Assembly: GCA_029982615.1 (NCBI GenBank)
Contig: JARRBK010000003.1
Coordinates: 1-64,000 of the forward strand
DNA: 64,000 nucleotides
Direction of reading: 5' to 3'
From: Tepidanaerobacteraceae bacterium
GTDB taxonomy: Bacteria > Bacillota > Thermosediminibacteria > Thermosediminibacterales > Tepidanaerobacteraceae
The notes beneath the pieces were generated by a model. It had not been told where the DNA came from. It made no database searches and saw nothing but the letters and a program-made list of their open reading frames with translations. Below, piece by piece: positions 37,414 to 48,388 of this stretch; position 1 is the first letter of the stretch, and every line of letters starts with the position of its first letter. The position numbers and the translations under genes are program-made.

Positions 37414-37457
37414 AACGATCGAACCCATGGTTTGTAAAAACCATGGGTTCGATCGTT
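37414..37457. terminator. 20-bp perfect hairpin between convergent genes
   Basis: AACGATCGAACCCATGGTTT-gtaa-AAACCATGGGTTCGATCGTT; overlaps stop codon of the minus-strand gerC-type gene; no clear U tract. Confidence 0.6.
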
Positions 37458-38604
37458 ATCTCAAAAGCAAGCCCACCTGATTTATTCTGCAGTTGACCTT
37501 TACATTTACGGGTAATTCTGTGAAAATTTCATCCCTCCATTTGCCTTCAATGGATTTCCACAGCTCGGGAAATTTATAGTGAATGTGATTGCCGAATCCA
37601 AAGACATCGGAATGGAAGCGCTTGGCAGCTATCAGCGATGCTTCTATTTCCCGCTTTATAACTTTTTCTTCAAGTGTTTCCACATTTTTTATGATATCGG
37701 GCTTTTGTAAGTCCGGCTTGGAAAACATTGATGCGATATTTCCTGTCTGGTTGACTGTAACGTTAATACCTATCTTTCCATTGCTTATAAATGGTTCAAT
37801 AGTGCTGGATGCTTTTATAATCTCTACGGAAATTTTGCTTTTTGATTCATCATCCTGCCAGGGGATTACTACAACACCACTTTTTACCCTGCCGAGCACC
37901 CATAAGACTCCTCGGCTTTCTATTTCGTTGAAGTAACCGGCGAACTTCCCGCTTTTAAAAGCTGCCGAGCCGGTAATATAAGGGCGATTGTTTTTATCTT
38001 TTTTAACCACTGGTAAAGCTATATCTTGGCCTCTTGTCTGTAAAGTTTGATATACATGAAGCAAGTCATTTGATATAGTTTTTGACTTGTAAGTGTTGGC
38101 TTTTATCTCATCTGCAATCGCTTTGGATGGAAGCATTTCGAGAGGATGGTCTGTATTTAAAATATCAAAGGCGCTATGGGGGGTAATCAGCACCCAGTTT
38201 CTTTCCCTAAATTCTGGGTCTCTGACAAAAAAGTCCAGGAGTTCATCCATGTTGTATTTTTTCGATGCTTCTTCGCTTATTATAATAATGCTGTTGTAAC
38301 CGTAAAATAGTTTTCTAGAAGTAAAGTCCAAAATTTTTCTGACTGCATAAAAAGTGGTTTCAGCAGTGGCAGAAAAAGTAGTATAAGGTTTGCCCTTGCT
38401 TCCGCCTCCTCCGGTATGACCTGTTGTCTTTATGTTAGAAGGGAGGACCACCTCTGTGGACAAAAGAATGTTGTTCTTTTCTGCGGAGTCGATGCCAACT
38501 CCCACGACCAGGCCTATTTCATTTAATTCCCGACGGTCCCAGCAGCCGGAAACAAACAGAGTTGCAAATATAATAAAACAAATTAATATCTGTTTTGGAT
38601 TCAT
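37456..38604 (-). CDS. gerC: Ger(x)C family spore germination lipoprotein
   Basis: Lipobox FVSGCWDRRELNEIGLVVGVGID typical of GerC; operon with GerA and GerB. Confidence 0.92.
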   Translation of the reverse strand: MNPKQILICFIIFATLFVSGCWDRRELNEIGLVVGVGIDSAEKNNILLSTEVVLPSNIKTTGHTGGGGSKGKPYTTFSATAETTFYAVRKILDFTSRKLFYGYNSIIIISEEASKKYNMDELLDFFVRDPEFRERNWVLITPHSAFDILNTDHPLEMLPSKAIADEIKANTYKSKTISNDLLHVYQTLQTRGQDIALPVVKKDKNNRPYITGSAAFKSGKFAGYFNEIESRGVLWVLGRVKSGVVVIPWQDDESKSKISVEIIKASSTIEPFISNGKIGINVTVNQTGNIASMFSKPDLQKPDIIKNVETLEEKVIKREIEASLIAAKRFHSDVFGFGNHIHYKFPELWKSIEGKWRDEIFTELPVNVKVNCRINQVGLLLR

Positions 38605-39695
38605 TCTAAATTCCTTTCCCTTCCTCCAAAAAGGATGAGAATCCAGAGGAACAGAGGAATAACCATCTCAAAAAAGAAATTATGCAGTGGCCATAAAGTA
38701 ATGAAAAATCTGTTTAATTGGGATACATTTTTAAAAATATTTGATAGAAGCAAAATAATGAACCCTGTTGGAAAAATCAGAGGTTTATAAGATTTGATGG
38801 CTAAAAATTGTGCAGAAATTAGACTTGCAGCGTAAATAAATAATGAGATTTGGACTACTTTGCTTAACACAAAAATGGAAAACCCTATGGGGTCTAAGTG
38901 TTCTACAAAATTGCCGTAACTTATGTAACGAAGGGCTATATAACCCCGGTATATTGTAACCTGGGCAAGATTAGGTCCCAGCACTCCTGTGATTATAGCA
39001 GTAGCAATAATCAGAAGAAAACCCTGGATTATACTTCCAATAGTAAGGGTCTTTTGACATTCTTCCGGCTTATTCACATAAGACAAAACCACCGGGACAA
39101 ACACAGTGAATACGAAACTGCTGGAAGATATAAAAGCCCCCTTGATCACAGGCGTCAAACCATTTTCCAGGACGGGTTTGAAATTATCCAATTTTACATT
39201 GGGCAAAAGCAGAAATAATCCGATTAAATAAAGTGAAATTATAGTAGGCAGGATTATTTCGTTGGTCCTCGCCTGAACCTCCAGGCCGTGAAAAGCCATA
39301 TAGCAGCTGGTGAGTATTATCATAAGGTCGATTACTACAGAGGGTGTTTGGACGTATATCATGGCAACGGCAAAGCTGGTGAGTTCTTTCAAAAATGCAG
39401 CTGATGAAAAAACAAAAAACCAAATGTACAAAACAATGACAATGCTGCCGACGATGCGGCCGCATATTTTTTTTATTCTACTTGAAAATTCCATGTCTTT
39501 GGAAAGCAAAGAAAACTTTAAAATCATTTGTAGCATGACCAGCTGTATTGCCAGAGAAAGTATTTCAGCAAGCCATGAATCCTGTCTACTACCTGCTGCA
39601 ATTGCAGTCTGAGAAAGGGGGATCAGCAAGGAATTACTTGTAGTTATCAGAAGCCACATCAATTGTCCTGCACGAATTTTCCCATGTTCTAACAT
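38601..39695 (-). CDS. gerB: GerB-type spore germination permease (GerAB/ArcD/ProY family)
   Basis: About 10 TM segments, IRAGQLMWLLITTSNSLLIPLSQTAIAAGSRQDSWLAEI. Confidence 0.9.
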   Translation of the reverse strand: MLEHGKIRAGQLMWLLITTSNSLLIPLSQTAIAAGSRQDSWLAEILSLAIQLVMLQMILKFSLLSKDMEFSSRIKKICGRIVGSIVIVLYIWFFVFSSAAFLKELTSFAVAMIYVQTPSVVIDLMIILTSCYMAFHGLEVQARTNEIILPTIISLYLIGLFLLLPNVKLDNFKPVLENGLTPVIKGAFISSSSFVFTVFVPVVLSYVNKPEECQKTLTIGSIIQGFLLIIATAIITGVLGPNLAQVTIYRGYIALRYISYGNFVEHLDPIGFSIFVLSKVVQISLFIYAASLISAQFLAIKSYKPLIFPTGFIILLLSNIFKNVSQLNRFFITLWPLHNFFFEMVIPLFLWILILFGGRERNLE

Positions 39696-39703
39696 GGTAT
39701 CAC

Positions 39704-41314
39704 CTATCTCTTATGAGGGCCCGGCTTTTGGCCAAATGGCTGTCTTTTGCTTTTAGAACCTATTAGATGGGGGCGCCACCGCATCATCCACCACGGTACC
39801 CTTACAATGCTATCCTGTAAATCGCGGGGTTTAAGCGGCCCAAGAGGTGAAAGATATGGCACCCCGAAAGAGCGGAGAGAGGCAAGATATGATAGTAAAA
39901 TAAGTGTGGCCAGCATAATGCCCATTAATCCCATGACCGCTCCAAGTATCAATAATAAAAATCTTATTATCACGAGTGTGATAACCATCTCGGGAGCGGG
40001 AATGGTGAAAATGGCAAGGCCAGTCAGCGCGGTGATAATTATTGTAGGGGGGCTGGTCAGTCCAGCGCTTACCGCTGCATCACCTATAATTAGGGTCCCC
40101 ACGATGCTTACGGCCTGACCTATGGTTCTGGGCATTCGGGTGCCCGCTTCCCGCAATATTTCGAAGACAAGCCCCATTAGTGCAGCTTCAACAAAAGTCG
40201 GAAACGGAACGCCTTCTCTGGTGGCGGCTATGGAAATTGCCAATGGAGTAGGTATCATCTCCTGATGGTAGGTGGTTACAGCAACATAAAGCGCAGGGAG
40301 GAAAACGGCTATTAATAGGGATAAAAACCTTATCCAGCGGGTGAAGCTGCTGAAAATGAAAATCAAATAGTAATCTTCACTGCTGATAAAAAATTCGGTG
40401 AAAACAGCGGGAACTATAAGTGCAGAAGGCGAACCGTCGACCAAAATTGCCAATTTTCCGGATAAAAGTTCAGCTGCTACAACGTCGGGTTTTTCGGTGC
40501 GATGAATGAGTGGGAACGGGCACAAAGGGGCATCTCTAATGAGTTCATCTATATAATTGGTATCCAGGATACCATCTATATTTATACGTGAAATTCTTTT
40601 CCTTGCCTCCTCCAGAATCTTATTGTTGACAACACCATCTATATAAAACAAACCTACCTGAGTTTTGGTGATGCTGCCAATTTCTAGAAACTCTGCTTTT
40701 AGTTTTGGGGATTTAATTTTCCTGCGGATTAAAGCATTATTTACTCGGAGAGCTTCCGTAAAGCCTTCCCGGGGGCCGCGGATTACCGGTTCTACCTCAG
40801 GTTCTTCCACATTTCTGAAATTATATCCCTCATAATCCACAATGAGGGCTTTGTTCAAACCGTCAATAAAGATTGCTGTAGAACCGGAACACACAGATTG
40901 GATGACTCTTTCCATCTCAGAAATTTTCTTTAAATCCGTTGAAGCCAGCAAATGGTTTTCTATGTAATCAAAGGCGTTGTTTTTTAGAAAATGATTTATA
41001 TTTTCTTCTTGAGACTTCACCATTAAAGGAATCATTACGGATTTTTCCAGGAGCTCTCTATCCACCAAACCGTCCAAAAACACAACAAAGGCCGGTATTC
41101 CCGGTTTTTTGCCTATCTTGAAGGGCCTTACGATGGCATCCTGGCAGTTTTTCATGACTGTATTGACATAATTTAGATTTTTTTGCAAGCTTTTACTTAC
41201 AGAGGTTTGTACTTCCGGAATTTTCCCCTGAAGGCCATCATTTAAAATTTCGTTTTTATTAAATTTTTTTATAAACGAAAAAGGCCACAATTTTTTAAGC
41301 AACGGAATCACCAA
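39704..41314 (-). CDS. gerA: GerA family spore germination protein
   Basis: PFKIGKKPGIPAFVVFLDGLVD ... LLSGKLAILVDGSPSALIVP ... TREGVPFPTFVEAALMGLVFEILREAGTRMP. Confidence 0.93.
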   Translation of the reverse strand: MVIPLLKKLWPFSFIKKFNKNEILNDGLQGKIPEVQTSVSKSLQKNLNYVNTVMKNCQDAIVRPFKIGKKPGIPAFVVFLDGLVDRELLEKSVMIPLMVKSQEENINHFLKNNAFDYIENHLLASTDLKKISEMERVIQSVCSGSTAIFIDGLNKALIVDYEGYNFRNVEEPEVEPVIRGPREGFTEALRVNNALIRRKIKSPKLKAEFLEIGSITKTQVGLFYIDGVVNNKILEEARKRISRINIDGILDTNYIDELIRDAPLCPFPLIHRTEKPDVVAAELLSGKLAILVDGSPSALIVPAVFTEFFISSEDYYLIFIFSSFTRWIRFLSLLIAVFLPALYVAVTTYHQEMIPTPLAISIAATREGVPFPTFVEAALMGLVFEILREAGTRMPRTIGQAVSIVGTLIIGDAAVSAGLTSPPTIIITALTGLAIFTIPAPEMVITLVIIRFLLLILGAVMGLMGIMLATLILLSYLASLRSFGVPYLSPLGPLKPRDLQDSIVRVPWWMMRWRPHLIGSKSKRQPFGQKPGPHKR

Positions 41315-42640: not shown

Positions 42641-43795
42641 ATGAATCTAGCTATACTATCTACTTACCCTCCGAGAGAATGTGGAATTGCATCTTTTGCA
42701 AGAGATCTGAAAAACCATCTTGCCATGTGGGGGCAAAATGTTTCCGTTCTGGCCATTACTGATAAAAACTCTTCTTACAATTATCCGCCGGAGGTAGTGT
42801 TTGAACTGAGAGAAGACAAAAAGGACGACTACCATATTGCGGCGGAGTTTTTAAACTCTGCAGAAGTTGACGCGGTTTTCGTAGAGCATGAATACGGTAT
42901 TTTTGGAGGGCGGGATGGAGAATTTGTTCTTGAATTTGCATCCAATTTGAATAAACCTTTTATACTGAATACCCATACTGTTTTACCTACTCCGGGATTC
43001 CGCCAGAGAGGCATTCTTGCAAAGCTTGGGAAAGAGGCACTCGCGGTGTTTTGCATGACCAGAAGGTCTTCAGAACTTTTAAACAGAGTGTACCGAATTC
43101 CGATGGAGAAAATATATGTGATTCCGCATGGAGTTCCTGTTTTCGAGGAAAAGCCTCGCGAAACATTGAAGAAATCTTACAACATTTCGGGAAGGCCGCT
43201 GGTTACCACATTCGGGTTTATAGGCCCTGGAAAAGGGATAGAATTAGGGATAAAGGCCATATCACTTTTAAAAGAAAAATATCCAGATATAATATACCTG
43301 GTGGCAGGTGAGACTCATCCAAATCTGAAAAAGAAAATGGGAGAGGCATATCGCGATTCTCTGCTGGATTTAATTGAAAAACTTAAAGTGGAAGATAATA
43401 TAAAATTCATCAACAGGTATATAAGCTTAGAAGAATTGGGTGAAATATTGTATATGACCGACGTATACCTTACGCCTTATCCCCACCGAAATCAGGCTGT
43501 AAGCGGAACGCTATCCTTTGCAGTGGGGTGCGGCAGAGCCATCGTGTCTACGCCGTATGACTATTCGCTAGAAATCTTAGGGGAGGGCAGAGGTCTGGTA
43601 GCGTCGGAGGCAGACCCGGCGGAATTGGCAGGTCTGATTGACAGAATATTATCAAACCCGCAGTTGCAGGCGCAACTTGAGAAAAGGACCATGAAACTTG
43701 GCAGAACCATGTTGTGGCCTGAAGTGGCGAAAAGTTATGTTAGCATTCTGCAGGGAATTCTTCAACAAGTAGATGTGGAGAGGAAGGTGTATTAA
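42641..43795 (+). CDS. Glycosyltransferase family 4 (mannosyltransferase-like)
   Basis: MNLAILSTYPPRECGIASFARDLKNHL ... VIPHGVPVFEEK ... TFGFIGPGKGIELGIKAISLL. Confidence 0.88.
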   Translation: MNLAILSTYPPRECGIASFARDLKNHLAMWGQNVSVLAITDKNSSYNYPPEVVFELREDKKDDYHIAAEFLNSAEVDAVFVEHEYGIFGGRDGEFVLEFASNLNKPFILNTHTVLPTPGFRQRGILAKLGKEALAVFCMTRRSSELLNRVYRIPMEKIYVIPHGVPVFEEKPRETLKKSYNISGRPLVTTFGFIGPGKGIELGIKAISLLKEKYPDIIYLVAGETHPNLKKKMGEAYRDSLLDLIEKLKVEDNIKFINRYISLEELGEILYMTDVYLTPYPHRNQAVSGTLSFAVGCGRAIVSTPYDYSLEILGEGRGLVASEADPAELAGLIDRILSNPQLQAQLEKRTMKLGRTMLWPEVAKSYVSILQGILQQVDVERKVY

Positions 43796-44818
43796 ATGTA
43801 TCGACATTTTTTGAACATGACCGATGCCACTGGCATAATACAATTTGCCGATAAATCAAAGCCGAAAAAAGAAAGTGGTTATACTGTGGATGACAATGCA
43901 AGGGCGCTGCTTGTGGCGCTGGATATGGAAGCGGAAGAAAGGGAAAGGCTTATAAACATATACGCCCGTTTTATGGATGAAGCGCAGGATTCCAATGGCA
44001 TATGGCAGAATTTAAAGGTGGATGGGAAATTCCTGCCTGTCATAAATTCGGAGGACAGTATGGGCAGAGGCATACTTGCGGCGAGTTTCGCAGTGGATTG
44101 CGGCATATCTGAGACTGAAAAATTGGCAGAAAAAATGCTGAAAAAAGCTTTGCCCAGGGCATTCCAATTCGATTCTCCAAGAGCCATATCCTATGCGCTA
44201 ATCGGAATTGCAAACTTGATAAATGGGGGAAGGTATTTACGGCTGCTGCCCTATGCAAAGCAGATGGCAGACAAATTGATAACGATGTACGAAATGAACC
44301 GAAGCCCTAAGTGGCTGTGGTTTGAAGACAAATTGACTTATTGCAATGCAGTGATACCTCATGCACTTTTCAGTTATTACAGGGTGAGCGGGGATAATAG
44401 AGCCCTGAAGGTTGCAAAAGATACGCTCAACTTTCTAACGGATTCTCTGTTTAAAAAAGGATATTTAAGTATTGTGGGAAATCAGGGATGGTGGCACAAG
44501 CAAAGTTTTATACCTCCGTTCGATCAGCAGCCGGTGGACGCAGCCTCAGTAGTGCTGGCATGCCTTGAGGCCTTTACTGTCACCGGAGAATCGGAATACA
44601 TGCATAAAGCAAAAATTGCATATGACTGGTACTGGGGAAAAAACATCAACGGCTTACCAGTGTATAACAAAGACACTCAGGGGTGCCATGATGCACTGGT
44701 TCCCAACGGTGTTAACCTCAATCAGGGCGCTGAAGCAGTGGTATCTTTTCTAATGGCCCATCAGGTCATAAAAGATGTAATGGAGAAAAAGAGGCAAAAA
44801 TTAATTCCTGCCGTTTAA
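43796..44818 (+). CDS. Conserved protein with predicted helical (alpha/alpha)-barrel fold, glycan-metabolism associated
   Basis: MYRHFLNMTDATGIIQFADKSKPKKESGYTVDDNARALLVALDME ... WHKQSFIPPFDQQPVDAASVVLACLEAF, helical-barrel-like motifs; starts immediately after upstream stop. Confidence 0.65.
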   Translation: MYRHFLNMTDATGIIQFADKSKPKKESGYTVDDNARALLVALDMEAEERERLINIYARFMDEAQDSNGIWQNLKVDGKFLPVINSEDSMGRGILAASFAVDCGISETEKLAEKMLKKALPRAFQFDSPRAISYALIGIANLINGGRYLRLLPYAKQMADKLITMYEMNRSPKWLWFEDKLTYCNAVIPHALFSYYRVSGDNRALKVAKDTLNFLTDSLFKKGYLSIVGNQGWWHKQSFIPPFDQQPVDAASVVLACLEAFTVTGESEYMHKAKIAYDWYWGKNINGLPVYNKDTQGCHDALVPNGVNLNQGAEAVVSFLMAHQVIKDVMEKKRQKLIPAV

Positions 44819-44821
44819 GGA

Positions 44822-47800
44822 GTGGAACCGGTGAGCAAAAATGCAAAAATTAATTCAGAGAATTTCTTTTCTGAAATGTTGAATCAAGTGAAAAGTCAAT
44901 GGCATAATTTAGATGATATAGACATTATTATCGGCATTCCGTTTTATAATGAAGAAAATACTTTGATTGAAGTGGTAAGAGCAGCTTTGAACAACCTGAG
45001 AAAAAGTTCTGTCCGCAAGCTGGTGGTATGCGTCGGAGATCCTCGAGGTGCACATATACCCGAAATACTTAAAAAAGAATTTGAAGATGCACCTTTGGCT
45101 GCTTTTATTATGCCCCGAAAAATAAAAGGTAGAGGTTGGAGCATTAGAGCTATTTTCGAGTTGGCCCGCTGTCTGGAAGCTGATGTAACGCTGCTGGCAG
45201 CAGATTTGCAAAACTACGGTAATCAGGGCATAGAACCCGAATGGATCGATAAATTGACACAACCCATATTGAATGATTACGACTTGACGATTGCATGTTT
45301 TAAGCGGCACCCTTTTGAAGATCCGACGGGCGCGCTGCTGATAGCACCACTGCTGGCAGCTTTATACGGAGTGGAAATCAACGATCCTTTGAGCGGCGTT
45401 TACGCCTTTTCCCATGATATGGTAGAAGACCTTTGCGTGGAGTTCGACCAATTCCATGAACACGCTGGTGGTTATGGCTTTGACCCATGGCTTATTGCTA
45501 CTGCTTTGAAATGGAAGAAAAGGATTTGTGAAGTGAGTCTTGGCACCAAGCTATCCCCGCCTGATTTTTGTAAAAAAAATATTGTGTTTAAACAAAGAGC
45601 CCGCACATTGTTTGAATGTATAAAAAGAGATGAAGATATATGGTCGGACCGGAACCCTATTGTGCAATCCCTTGACGCAATCAGAGAAGAAAGCCAAGCG
45701 ACTCCGGATGAAGTAATGTGCAATTTTTATGATTTTGTGGATTCTTTCAAAGAAGGATATTATCATTACCAGAATTTTTTGCGCAGGGTGCTGAGCGATG
45801 AGTCGATTAAAGTGCTGGAAAAGGCGGTGGAGGAACCTCCTGAAAATGTCTATATACCGCCTAATGCCTGGGCTAAAATGGTGTATGAATTTTTAATAAG
45901 CTTTGGCTTTTTGGATAGGGCTGGCAAAAAAGACTCACTGGAATCTCTGATGACGGTTTATGAGGGTTTGATTGCCGGGATTATAGCAAAAACTGCAGGC
46001 CCAAAAAAAATATTGGAACAAAACGGCATAGAGACGAATTTGGTATTGCCTGCTATGATTCGAGATATATATAAAGAATACGCAGATGCATTTTTCGAAT
46101 TCAGGCAGGGCTTTATACAGAAATGGGGTAAAAAAGTTCAGGAGACGAGCCCTTTTATTATGCCCCTGGATTACCTGGAATTTATTCCAGGCGTACCTAT
46201 AGTCCTGCCGAAAAAGCTCACCGGTGCCAATAAAAGAGAGGTTTATACCGGGGATATATTTAAAAAATTACAAAAAAAATATGAGGCTGCATTTGAAAAT
46301 TTTATGCATAGCATCGGCATAAACAGCCGCGGTTTGTCCTGGGAAGTGTTTAAAGGCTATGAATCTTTTTTAGCAAGCCTTGAGAAAACTATAGATTCTT
46401 TGTTTCCGGGTGACCTGTATACTGAAGAAGGAACAAAGACAATGGTAAAAAGGCTTTTTGAAATTTTCCCGCACAGTAAAATCATTGCAGTAAAGTGGGA
46501 AATTCTCAGAAAGCTGTTGTATGAATTTCCGCCGAGGAATCTAATTGTAAGATTGGGTTTTAGAAATATGCGCCAGCTTTTGGACAATGTAGATGTTCGA
46601 GATATATTGACCCTTGCACAATTTACAGAGGACAAGGATTATTTCGACCGTATCTTTTATTGGCTAAAGGATAACCTGCGGCCCGATAGCTTTGAAGAAG
46701 TGGAGCTTTCGCCCATGGTGGTCAGCAGAAATAAATTTCCAGCACTGAATGAACTTCGAGAGATATCAGATCTCAACCGCCTTACTGCCAGAATAGCCGT
46801 AATGAACCTGGGCAAGGGGATGGGCGGCGATTATCCGAAACTACGATATTTTACAAGAGTTGCAAAAAGCATAGTGGAAGCCGAACATTTTTCCGATATA
46901 TGGAAGGCATATGCCCGAGAACGAAAGGAGGTTGGCAGGAAATTTGTAAATTCCATACTGGGGCATTACGGCAAAGCAACTTTTTCTGCCCATCATATAT
47001 TTGAAAACTGGCATCACCGGCAGTTCGCAGCCAGATTAAAAAAGTTGGCAGCAAAATTAGCGGATGAAAACCGGATGGAAGAATCGGCAAAACTGGCGGC
47101 AATGGCCGATGGGTACGGCCTTAGTTTGGTGCTGGAAGATGGGACCTTTTTTCCGTGCTCCGCGTGGACGTGGGCGAGCTACAGTTTCAAAGGTGGCGAA
47201 GGCATTCCTACTCCGCTGTCTTTGCACATAGAGAGAGACTGGTTTAATCATGATCTTTTGGAAGAGATTTATAAAGAAATGGGATACGATCCGAGAGAAA
47301 TACTGGAACAGGTGTTTCAGCTGATAAGTCTTGGTCGAGAGAGTAGCGATTTGACTGTGGTCCTTCTGGGAGTAAAACCTCCCAAGGAGGAAATAGTTAT
47401 TCAGGAACTGGAGAACTGGCCCAGAGCCCGGGAATTAAAGAGATATGAAAAAAATCCACTGCTTAGTCCGATAAAGGAGCACTGGTGGGAGAACAAATAC
47501 GTGCTAAATACAGCCGCTTTTCGGATCAAAGATAGAATATACCTGCTGTACAGGGCCTTTGGGCAGGATGGCATTTCGAGGATAGGGCTTGCAGTATCAG
47601 ACGGCTATAATATTATTGAGAGGTTAGATAAACCCGTATTTATCCCGGAAAGGGAGCAGGAAAGAAAAGGGTGCGAGGACCCTAGGGTTGTAATAATAGA
47701 CGATGAGATTTTCATGCTTTACACTGCTTATGACGGTGTGGTGGCCCAAATAGCGGCAGCGTCTATCTCTGTGGAAGATTTTTTGGATAGGAATTTCGAC

Positions 47801-48388
47801 AGGTGGAAAAGGAGAGGCTTTGCCTTCCCTGGCCTGTGGGATAAAGATGCCTTTTTGTTTCCGGAAAAAATCGAAGGCAAATACGTTATATATCATCGTA
47901 TAGAACCCAGTATATGGATAGCTTATTCTGACGAATTAGTATTTCCGTGGCCGAGAGATGGCCATAAAATAATCATGGGGCCGAGGTCTGGTATGATGTG
48001 GGACTCCTTGAAAATAGGAGCAGGCGCCCAGCCTATAAAAACTAAGTATGGCTGGCTCCTTATATATCATGGAGTGGATAGAGAAATGGTTTATAGGTTG
48101 GGGGTAGTCCTGGTGGATCTGAAGGATCCCGAGAGGGTGCTCTATCGGTCTCCGAATCCTGTACTTTCTCCTGAAACCGATTTTGAGATAGGAAAACCTG
48201 GCGAAAGCTGGGTGCCAAATGTGGTTTTCACCTGCGGGGCGGTGCCAGCGGTAGACAAGGACATCCTTGATGACGATGATGAGATATTGGTTTATTATGG
48301 GGCGGCGGATACGAACATATGCCTAGCAACGGGTAAGGTAGAAGATTTGATACCCGAGGAAGTGAGAAATAGGCTGCAAAAAAACTGA
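44822..48388 (+). CDS. Multidomain protein: N-terminal GT-A glycosyltransferase, unassigned middle, C-terminal GH130 phosphorylase/hydrolase domain
   Basis: GT-A: DIIIGIPFYNEENTLIEVV ... LLAADLQNYGNQGIEPEW. GH130: KRYEKNPLLSPIKEHWWENKYVLNTAAF ... LLYRAFGQDGISRIGLA ... KGCEDPRVVIID ... LLIYHGVD. Confidence 0.85.
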   Translation: MEPVSKNAKINSENFFSEMLNQVKSQWHNLDDIDIIIGIPFYNEENTLIEVVRAALNNLRKSSVRKLVVCVGDPRGAHIPEILKKEFEDAPLAAFIMPRKIKGRGWSIRAIFELARCLEADVTLLAADLQNYGNQGIEPEWIDKLTQPILNDYDLTIACFKRHPFEDPTGALLIAPLLAALYGVEINDPLSGVYAFSHDMVEDLCVEFDQFHEHAGGYGFDPWLIATALKWKKRICEVSLGTKLSPPDFCKKNIVFKQRARTLFECIKRDEDIWSDRNPIVQSLDAIREESQATPDEVMCNFYDFVDSFKEGYYHYQNFLRRVLSDESIKVLEKAVEEPPENVYIPPNAWAKMVYEFLISFGFLDRAGKKDSLESLMTVYEGLIAGIIAKTAGPKKILEQNGIETNLVLPAMIRDIYKEYADAFFEFRQGFIQKWGKKVQETSPFIMPLDYLEFIPGVPIVLPKKLTGANKREVYTGDIFKKLQKKYEAAFENFMHSIGINSRGLSWEVFKGYESFLASLEKTIDSLFPGDLYTEEGTKTMVKRLFEIFPHSKIIAVKWEILRKLLYEFPPRNLIVRLGFRNMRQLLDNVDVRDILTLAQFTEDKDYFDRIFYWLKDNLRPDSFEEVELSPMVVSRNKFPALNELREISDLNRLTARIAVMNLGKGMGGDYPKLRYFTRVAKSIVEAEHFSDIWKAYARERKEVGRKFVNSILGHYGKATFSAHHIFENWHHRQFAARLKKLAAKLADENRMEESAKLAAMADGYGLSLVLEDGTFFPCSAWTWASYSFKGGEGIPTPLSLHIERDWFNHDLLEEIYKEMGYDPREILEQVFQLISLGRESSDLTVVLLGVKPPKEEIVIQELENWPRARELKRYEKNPLLSPIKEHWWENKYVLNTAAFRIKDRIYLLYRAFGQDGISRIGLAVSDGYNIIERLDKPVFIPEREQERKGCEDPRVVIIDDEIFMLYTAYDGVVAQIAAASISVEDFLDRNFDRWKRRGFAFPGLWDKDAFLFPEKIEGKYVIYHRIEPSIWIAYSDELVFPWPRDGHKIIMGPRSGMMWDSLKIGAGAQPIKTKYGWLLIYHGVDREMVYRLGVVLVDLKDPERVLYRSPNPVLSPETDFEIGKPGESWVPNVVFTCGAVPAVDKDILDDDDEILVYYGAADTNICLATGKVEDLIPEEVRNRLQKN

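Follow-up and report, generated by a model that had tools for sequence, protein, structure and literature searches.

Within the window, the whole stretch of 64,000 nucleotides that was analysed, a fused protein is encoded by one open reading frame that lies third in an operon, in the order GT4 glycosyltransferase, alpha/alpha-toroid protein and fusion (Table 1). The gaps between these genes are 0 and 3 nt, the latter running from the toroid end to the GTG at 44822. No obvious signal peptide was found by inspection at the N-termini of the three proteins. The frame had been reported in an earlier note on this DNA, and it was confirmed here as a single ORF. As for its start, an AAGGAG sequence at 44817-44822 overlaps the first GTG and is placed 8 nt ahead of a second GTG, and the closest ortholog (L002) starts at the residue matching V4, which is encoded by this second codon. 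Because of the AAGGAG spacing and the ortholog's start, translation probably begins at V4 and not at the first GTG.

Table 1. Positions of the operon genes and of the modules of the fused protein in the window
Feature	Position	Strand	Remarks
GT4 glycosyltransferase, first gene of the operon	42641..43795	+	
Alpha/alpha-toroid protein	43796..44818	+	weak matches to GH88/GH127/C5-epimerase C-terminal models
Fused protein, frame as first read	44822..48388	+	1188 aa; likelier start GTG 44831, giving 1185 aa
Module 1, GT-A with C-terminal helical part, residues about 4-430	44831..46111	+	MgS-like fold; AAD 126-128 at the DXD site, metal His absent
Module 2, conserved domain with no family match, residues 435-868	46124..47425	+	mostly helical; invariant W782, W784, P796, E804, W807
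Module 3, GH130 domain of the beta-1,2-mannoside phosphorylase type, residues 870-1188	47429..48385	+	invariant E952, D953, R955, K1008, H1025, R1026, K1064, H1083, D1163

Three genes located just upstream of the GT4 gene (37456-41314, minus strand) look, by eye, like a spore germination operon of the GerA type. No defence system was matched by PADLOC and no RNA feature was found in Rfam.

Three modules in one chain

The fused protein consists of three modules, not two. A conserved domain, about 430 aa long and lying between the halves, had gone unnoticed in the earlier two-part reading. Among 49 orthologs, the GH130 domain was the most conserved module, with a mean pairwise identity of 70%, compared with 43% for the GT-A domain, 26% for its C-terminal helices and 48% for the middle domain.

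The assignment of the C-terminal part, from about residue 870, to GH130 with an EDPR segment proved right. Pfam GH130 (PF04041) matched residues 895-1177 with an E value of 7.6e-55 and 186.5 bits against a cut-off of 26. The EDPR segment (residues 952-955) and the other residues listed in Table 1 are invariant in the 49 orthologs. The E-D pair with the catalytic Asp, typical of the beta-1,2 group, is present in 49/49, so the catalytic residues have not been lost. The closest proteins were Teth514_1789 (E 3.4e-64) and Teth514_1788 (E 9.1e-62), the beta-1,2-mannobiose and 1,2-beta-oligomannan phosphorylases of Thermoanaerobacter sp. X-514. Foldseek shows them to have a GH130 of the same type along some 300 residues, at 37-42% identity. 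They share the ED pair, the Lys and the basic residues with the fusion's domain, and their genes are clustered with those for GT4, GH5 and GDP-mannose pyrophosphorylase (ManC) (PMC4264767). However, each of them stands alone as a protein of about 300 aa, whereas the GH130 of the fusion is accompanied by about 870 extra residues forming two other modules.

According to Cuskin et al. (PMC4599007), beta-1,2 specificity is tied to the Glu beside the catalytic Asp and to a conserved Lys, and the replacement of basic phosphate-site residues by Glu is tied to hydrolases. K1008 aligns with the NKDA-motif Lys of Teth514_1788/1789, and its putative equivalence to BT3780 Lys199, deduced from that study, was judged by pairwise alignment. 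Pairwise alignment also showed that H1025, R1026, K1064 and H1083 are common to proven phosphorylases, where they would be putative phosphate contacts. The best NCBIfam model was beta-1,2-mannobiose phosphorylase (NF052550) at 270.6 bits, below its equivalog cut-off of 450 bits, and the linkage could therefore differ. By its residues, the domain fits the beta-1,2 phosphorylase side, and the sequence comparisons strongly favour a putative phosphorylase of the beta-1,2 type.

The N-terminus had been read as a GT-A fold resembling glucosyl/mannosyl-3-phosphoglycerate synthases, which was also correct. Pfam gave a weak Glycos_transf_2 match at residues 37-167, and the AlphaFold model was confident for residues about 11-440. 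Module 1 aligned with the whole Rhodothermus mannosylglycerate synthase (MgS, GT78; 2bo7, 2y4j) at a Foldseek TM of 0.75 by target (E 1.4e-12, 415 columns), followed by GpgS (GT81), and its profile matched GT2/DPMS structures. Thus module 1 has the two-part GT-A fold with the MgS-type C-terminal part, although its identity to MgS is as low as 14-15% and it is, in contrast to MgS and GpgS, fused to a phosphorylase.

In MgS and GpgS, the metal is bound by the second Asp of the DXD motif and a His, as described for Asp136/Asp102 and His217 (PMC2581804). The DXD and metal-His combination of GT78/GT81 is not found in the window's module 1, where both the first acid and the His are gone. The first position is occupied by E in 28 of the 49 orthologs, by A in 10, S in 4, K in 3, T in 2 and V in 1, and the metal His was found in a single protein. 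The last Asp (D128) is retained in 42/49 and E44 in 45/49. Free-standing relatives of module 1 (25-28% identity), which hit both the model and the structures of glucosyl-3-phosphoglycerate synthase, retain DSD and the His. The active site thus appears eroded; because the first acid and the metal His are missing in the window protein, transferase activity is doubtful rather than excluded, and with D128 and E44 mostly kept, the module does not look plainly dead. GpgS-like proteins that stand alone and have kept both DSD and the His are encoded at L059:5413-6699, L061:2880-4193 and L060:439-2424. The L059 and L061 genes adjoin a LacI regulator and an ABC sugar transporter, and that of L059 also a glucosylglycerate-hydrolase homolog.

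The middle domain had no relative in Pfam, NCBIfam or PDB when searched with 14- or 44-row alignments. Its profile gave weak I-CreI/Ty Gag matches, which were rejected as chance matches. The separate model was mostly helical and weak (pLDDT 66) because it was built from close homologs only, and with this weak query a Foldseek search returned nothing below E 0.2 (cut-off E 0.001). Within the sampled genomes, the domain never occurred outside the fusion, and the shorter frames were contig ends or split matches. A plasmid origin was also considered and dropped, as no plasmid matched the domain.

Distribution and genomic neighbourhood of the fusion

A profile search with the middle region gave matches in 22/26 genomes of the window's class and 51/399 sampled genomes of its phylum. 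Three weak phylum matches (G149, G181 and G206) were left out, because what matched was only the C-terminal helices of GpgS-like proteins that occur unfused; hence 48/399 genomes carry the fusion. The earlier note had suggested looking for the same fusion across Firmicutes, and it was found in part of the phylum. Complete copies in both sets are about 1170-1275 aa long. Full-length relatives were present in named Thermosediminibacter, Tepidanaerobacter, Fervidicola and Thermovorax genomes, and the nearest relative (86%) belongs to a Tepidanaerobacteraceae MAG. Two copies each were found in G202, G299, G061, G190, G331, G100 and G215. Because full-length copies recur across many genomes, the fusion is a conserved architecture, and a chance fusion or a frameshift artefact was ruled out. 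No published description of this exact architecture, which the earlier note had named as grounds for refutation, was found in the open literature.

The partners of the fusion recur as well. The toroid gene was found in 43/48 fusion genomes against 48/351 genomes without the fusion, and ManC in 42/48 against 127/351, counts that ignore shared ancestry. Nearly every fusion is accompanied by a dedicated GT4. ManC maps no more than 15 kb from the fusion in 19 genomes, which represent five families, while in the window's own two families it is elsewhere in the genome. The L099 and L101 loci comprise ManC, phosphomannomutase (PMM), the fusion, a second GT4, a GH5-like protein, the toroid and GT4, and the L100 locus has the same set without the GH5-like protein. 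Beside the fusion, the second GT4 is itself fused to a mannose 6-phosphate isomerase (ManA) cupin at L100:10067-11425 (-) and L101:9845-11209 (-). The GH5-like protein, conserved and of about 410 aa, is found repeatedly next to the second GT4 in the vicinity of the fusion (L101:11276-12499 (-), L099:11964-13193 (-), L063 and L078); it has no Pfam or NCBIfam match and its label rests on a sequence pattern. Neither an exporter nor a sugar importer or secreted mannanase recurred in the fusion neighbourhoods inspected.

Some genomes with GT4 and toroid genes but without the fusion carry a free GH130 there (L085, L086, L091 and L093, and partly L094). Unfused GH130 genes also stand beside GT4-toroid genes on plasmids of Sphingobium, Devosia, Rhizobium and Ilyobacter (Alphaproteobacteria, Fusobacteriota), with ManA in the Sphingobium and Devosia sets and ManC and PMM in the Sphingobium set. 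These plasmid operons have the same GT4, toroid and GH130 partners as the window. They differ in that GT4 and toroid are fused, whereas GH130 is free and both GT-A and the middle domain are absent. No published function for them was found in the open literature. Since the unfused partners co-occur in fusion-free genomes and on plasmids, the link between GT4, toroid, GH130 and GDP-mannose is probably older than the fusion.

Two further gene arrangements were observed at such loci. ManC, ManA cupin and PMM are joined in one chain at L085:3721-6831 (-) and L086:8399-12490 (+), in ORFs of 1036 and 1363 aa that adjoin the GT4-toroid and free GH130 genes. On the conjugative plasmid pSES220 of Sphingobium yanoikuyae (L080:689-9942), groESL is directly upstream of ManC, ManA, GT4-toroid, GH130 and PMM, which suggests a stress-related island.

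A proposed mannoside cycle and its alternatives

We consider it about an even chance that the protein acts in the cytosol as a GH130 beta-1,2-mannoside phosphorylase to which two N-terminal modules, a degenerate MgS-like GT-A unit and a conserved domain of a new kind, have been added, and that it works with GT4 and toroid in a GDP-mannose-linked cycle. The GT4 enzymes of the window and its relatives would convert GDP-mannose to beta-mannoside. The GH130 domain would then release mannose 1-phosphate from the beta-mannoside with phosphate, and this product may return to GDP-mannose via ManC or enter glycolysis via phosphomannomutase. For the GT-A and middle domains, the likeliest role would be glycan binding or anchoring, or the sensing of a nucleotide sugar, rather than sugar transfer. 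The intact phosphorylase, the mannose activation genes, the GT4 enzymes and the fact that no exporter or importer recurs across the inspected loci together suggest an internal cycle. What the analysis shows directly is the architecture, the module 1 fold, the intact GH130 residues and the linkage of the genes in operon and genome; the linkage of the substrate, the direction and product of the reaction, the intracellular store and the parts played by modules 1 and 2 are predictions.

The earlier note had placed building and phosphorolysing activities on one polypeptide, an idea that is not supported by the AAD sequence in the window, the loss of the metal His in 48/49 orthologs and the intact motif of the free-standing relatives. 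A bifunctional enzyme of this kind, whose active GT-A primes or builds a beta-mannoside (perhaps glycerate-capped) for the GH130 to extend or phosphorolyse, is nevertheless favoured by the whole MgS fold, the mostly conserved D128 and E44 and the fact that no complete fusion was found without GT-A. In addition, some GT-A enzymes do without a DXD motif. However, the first acid is replaced with Ala in the window and with Ala, Ser, Lys, Thr or Val in 20/49 orthologs, the second Asp is lost in 7/49, and a dedicated GT4 is usually at hand. We therefore regard it as unlikely, and the building activity more likely resides in the partner GT4 and GDP-mannose genes than in GT-A.

The GT-A fold and its GpgS-like relatives could also point to compatible-solute metabolism, in which GT-A makes a mannosylated glycerate-type solute as a glucosyl/mannosylglycerate synthase and GH130 removes the mannose. 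Thermophiles are frequent among the named host species, and the free-standing relatives adjoin the glucosylglycerate-hydrolase homolog and sugar ABC transporter. But neither gene occurs in the surroundings of the fusion, the active site of GT-A is eroded and the GH130 resembles mannan-chain enzymes instead of those acting on glycerate glycosides, which makes this account improbable. Salvage alone, with imported beta-1,2-oligomannan phosphorolysed without an internal store, is the role proposed for the closest characterised enzymes in Thermoanaerobacter (PMC4264767). It appears quite improbable here, as the loci inspected show no recurrent sugar importer or secreted mannanase next to the fusion, and two GT4 genes and GDP-mannose genes are found there instead.

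Returning to the GDP-mannose-linked cycle, the fusion protein is probably responsible for recycling in an internal, hitherto undescribed mannose store, as one half of its turnover. The storage or surface mannan suggested earlier is retained in its internal form; a surface mannan is less likely, because there is no visible secretion signal and no recurring exporter in the neighbourhoods inspected. The Leishmania GT108 mannogen enzymes, dual transferase-phosphorylases with a GH130-type fold, turn over beta-1,2-mannan (PMC8950772). This likeness concerns the way of working only, and the store in fusion hosts is putative. Moreover, one propeller domain performs both activities in GT108, whereas the fusion has a separate GT-A module attached. 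More tentatively, it is possible that these bacteria keep a cytosolic beta-1,2-mannan reserve, a bacterial 'mannogen', built by GT4 and toroid and then anchored and mobilised by the three-module protein to feed GDP-mannose. GT-A might then be a primer or sensor, the middle domain a new polymer-handling module founding a family of its own, and GH130 the phosphorylase.

In the conserved operon, GDP-mannose synthesis and GT4 enzymes are linked with a fused phosphorylase for beta-1,2-mannosides, and such an operon offers a direct place to seek a bacterial glycan of this kind. The middle domain of the fusion, 430 aa long, well conserved and without a known family, was confined to the fusion in our sample.
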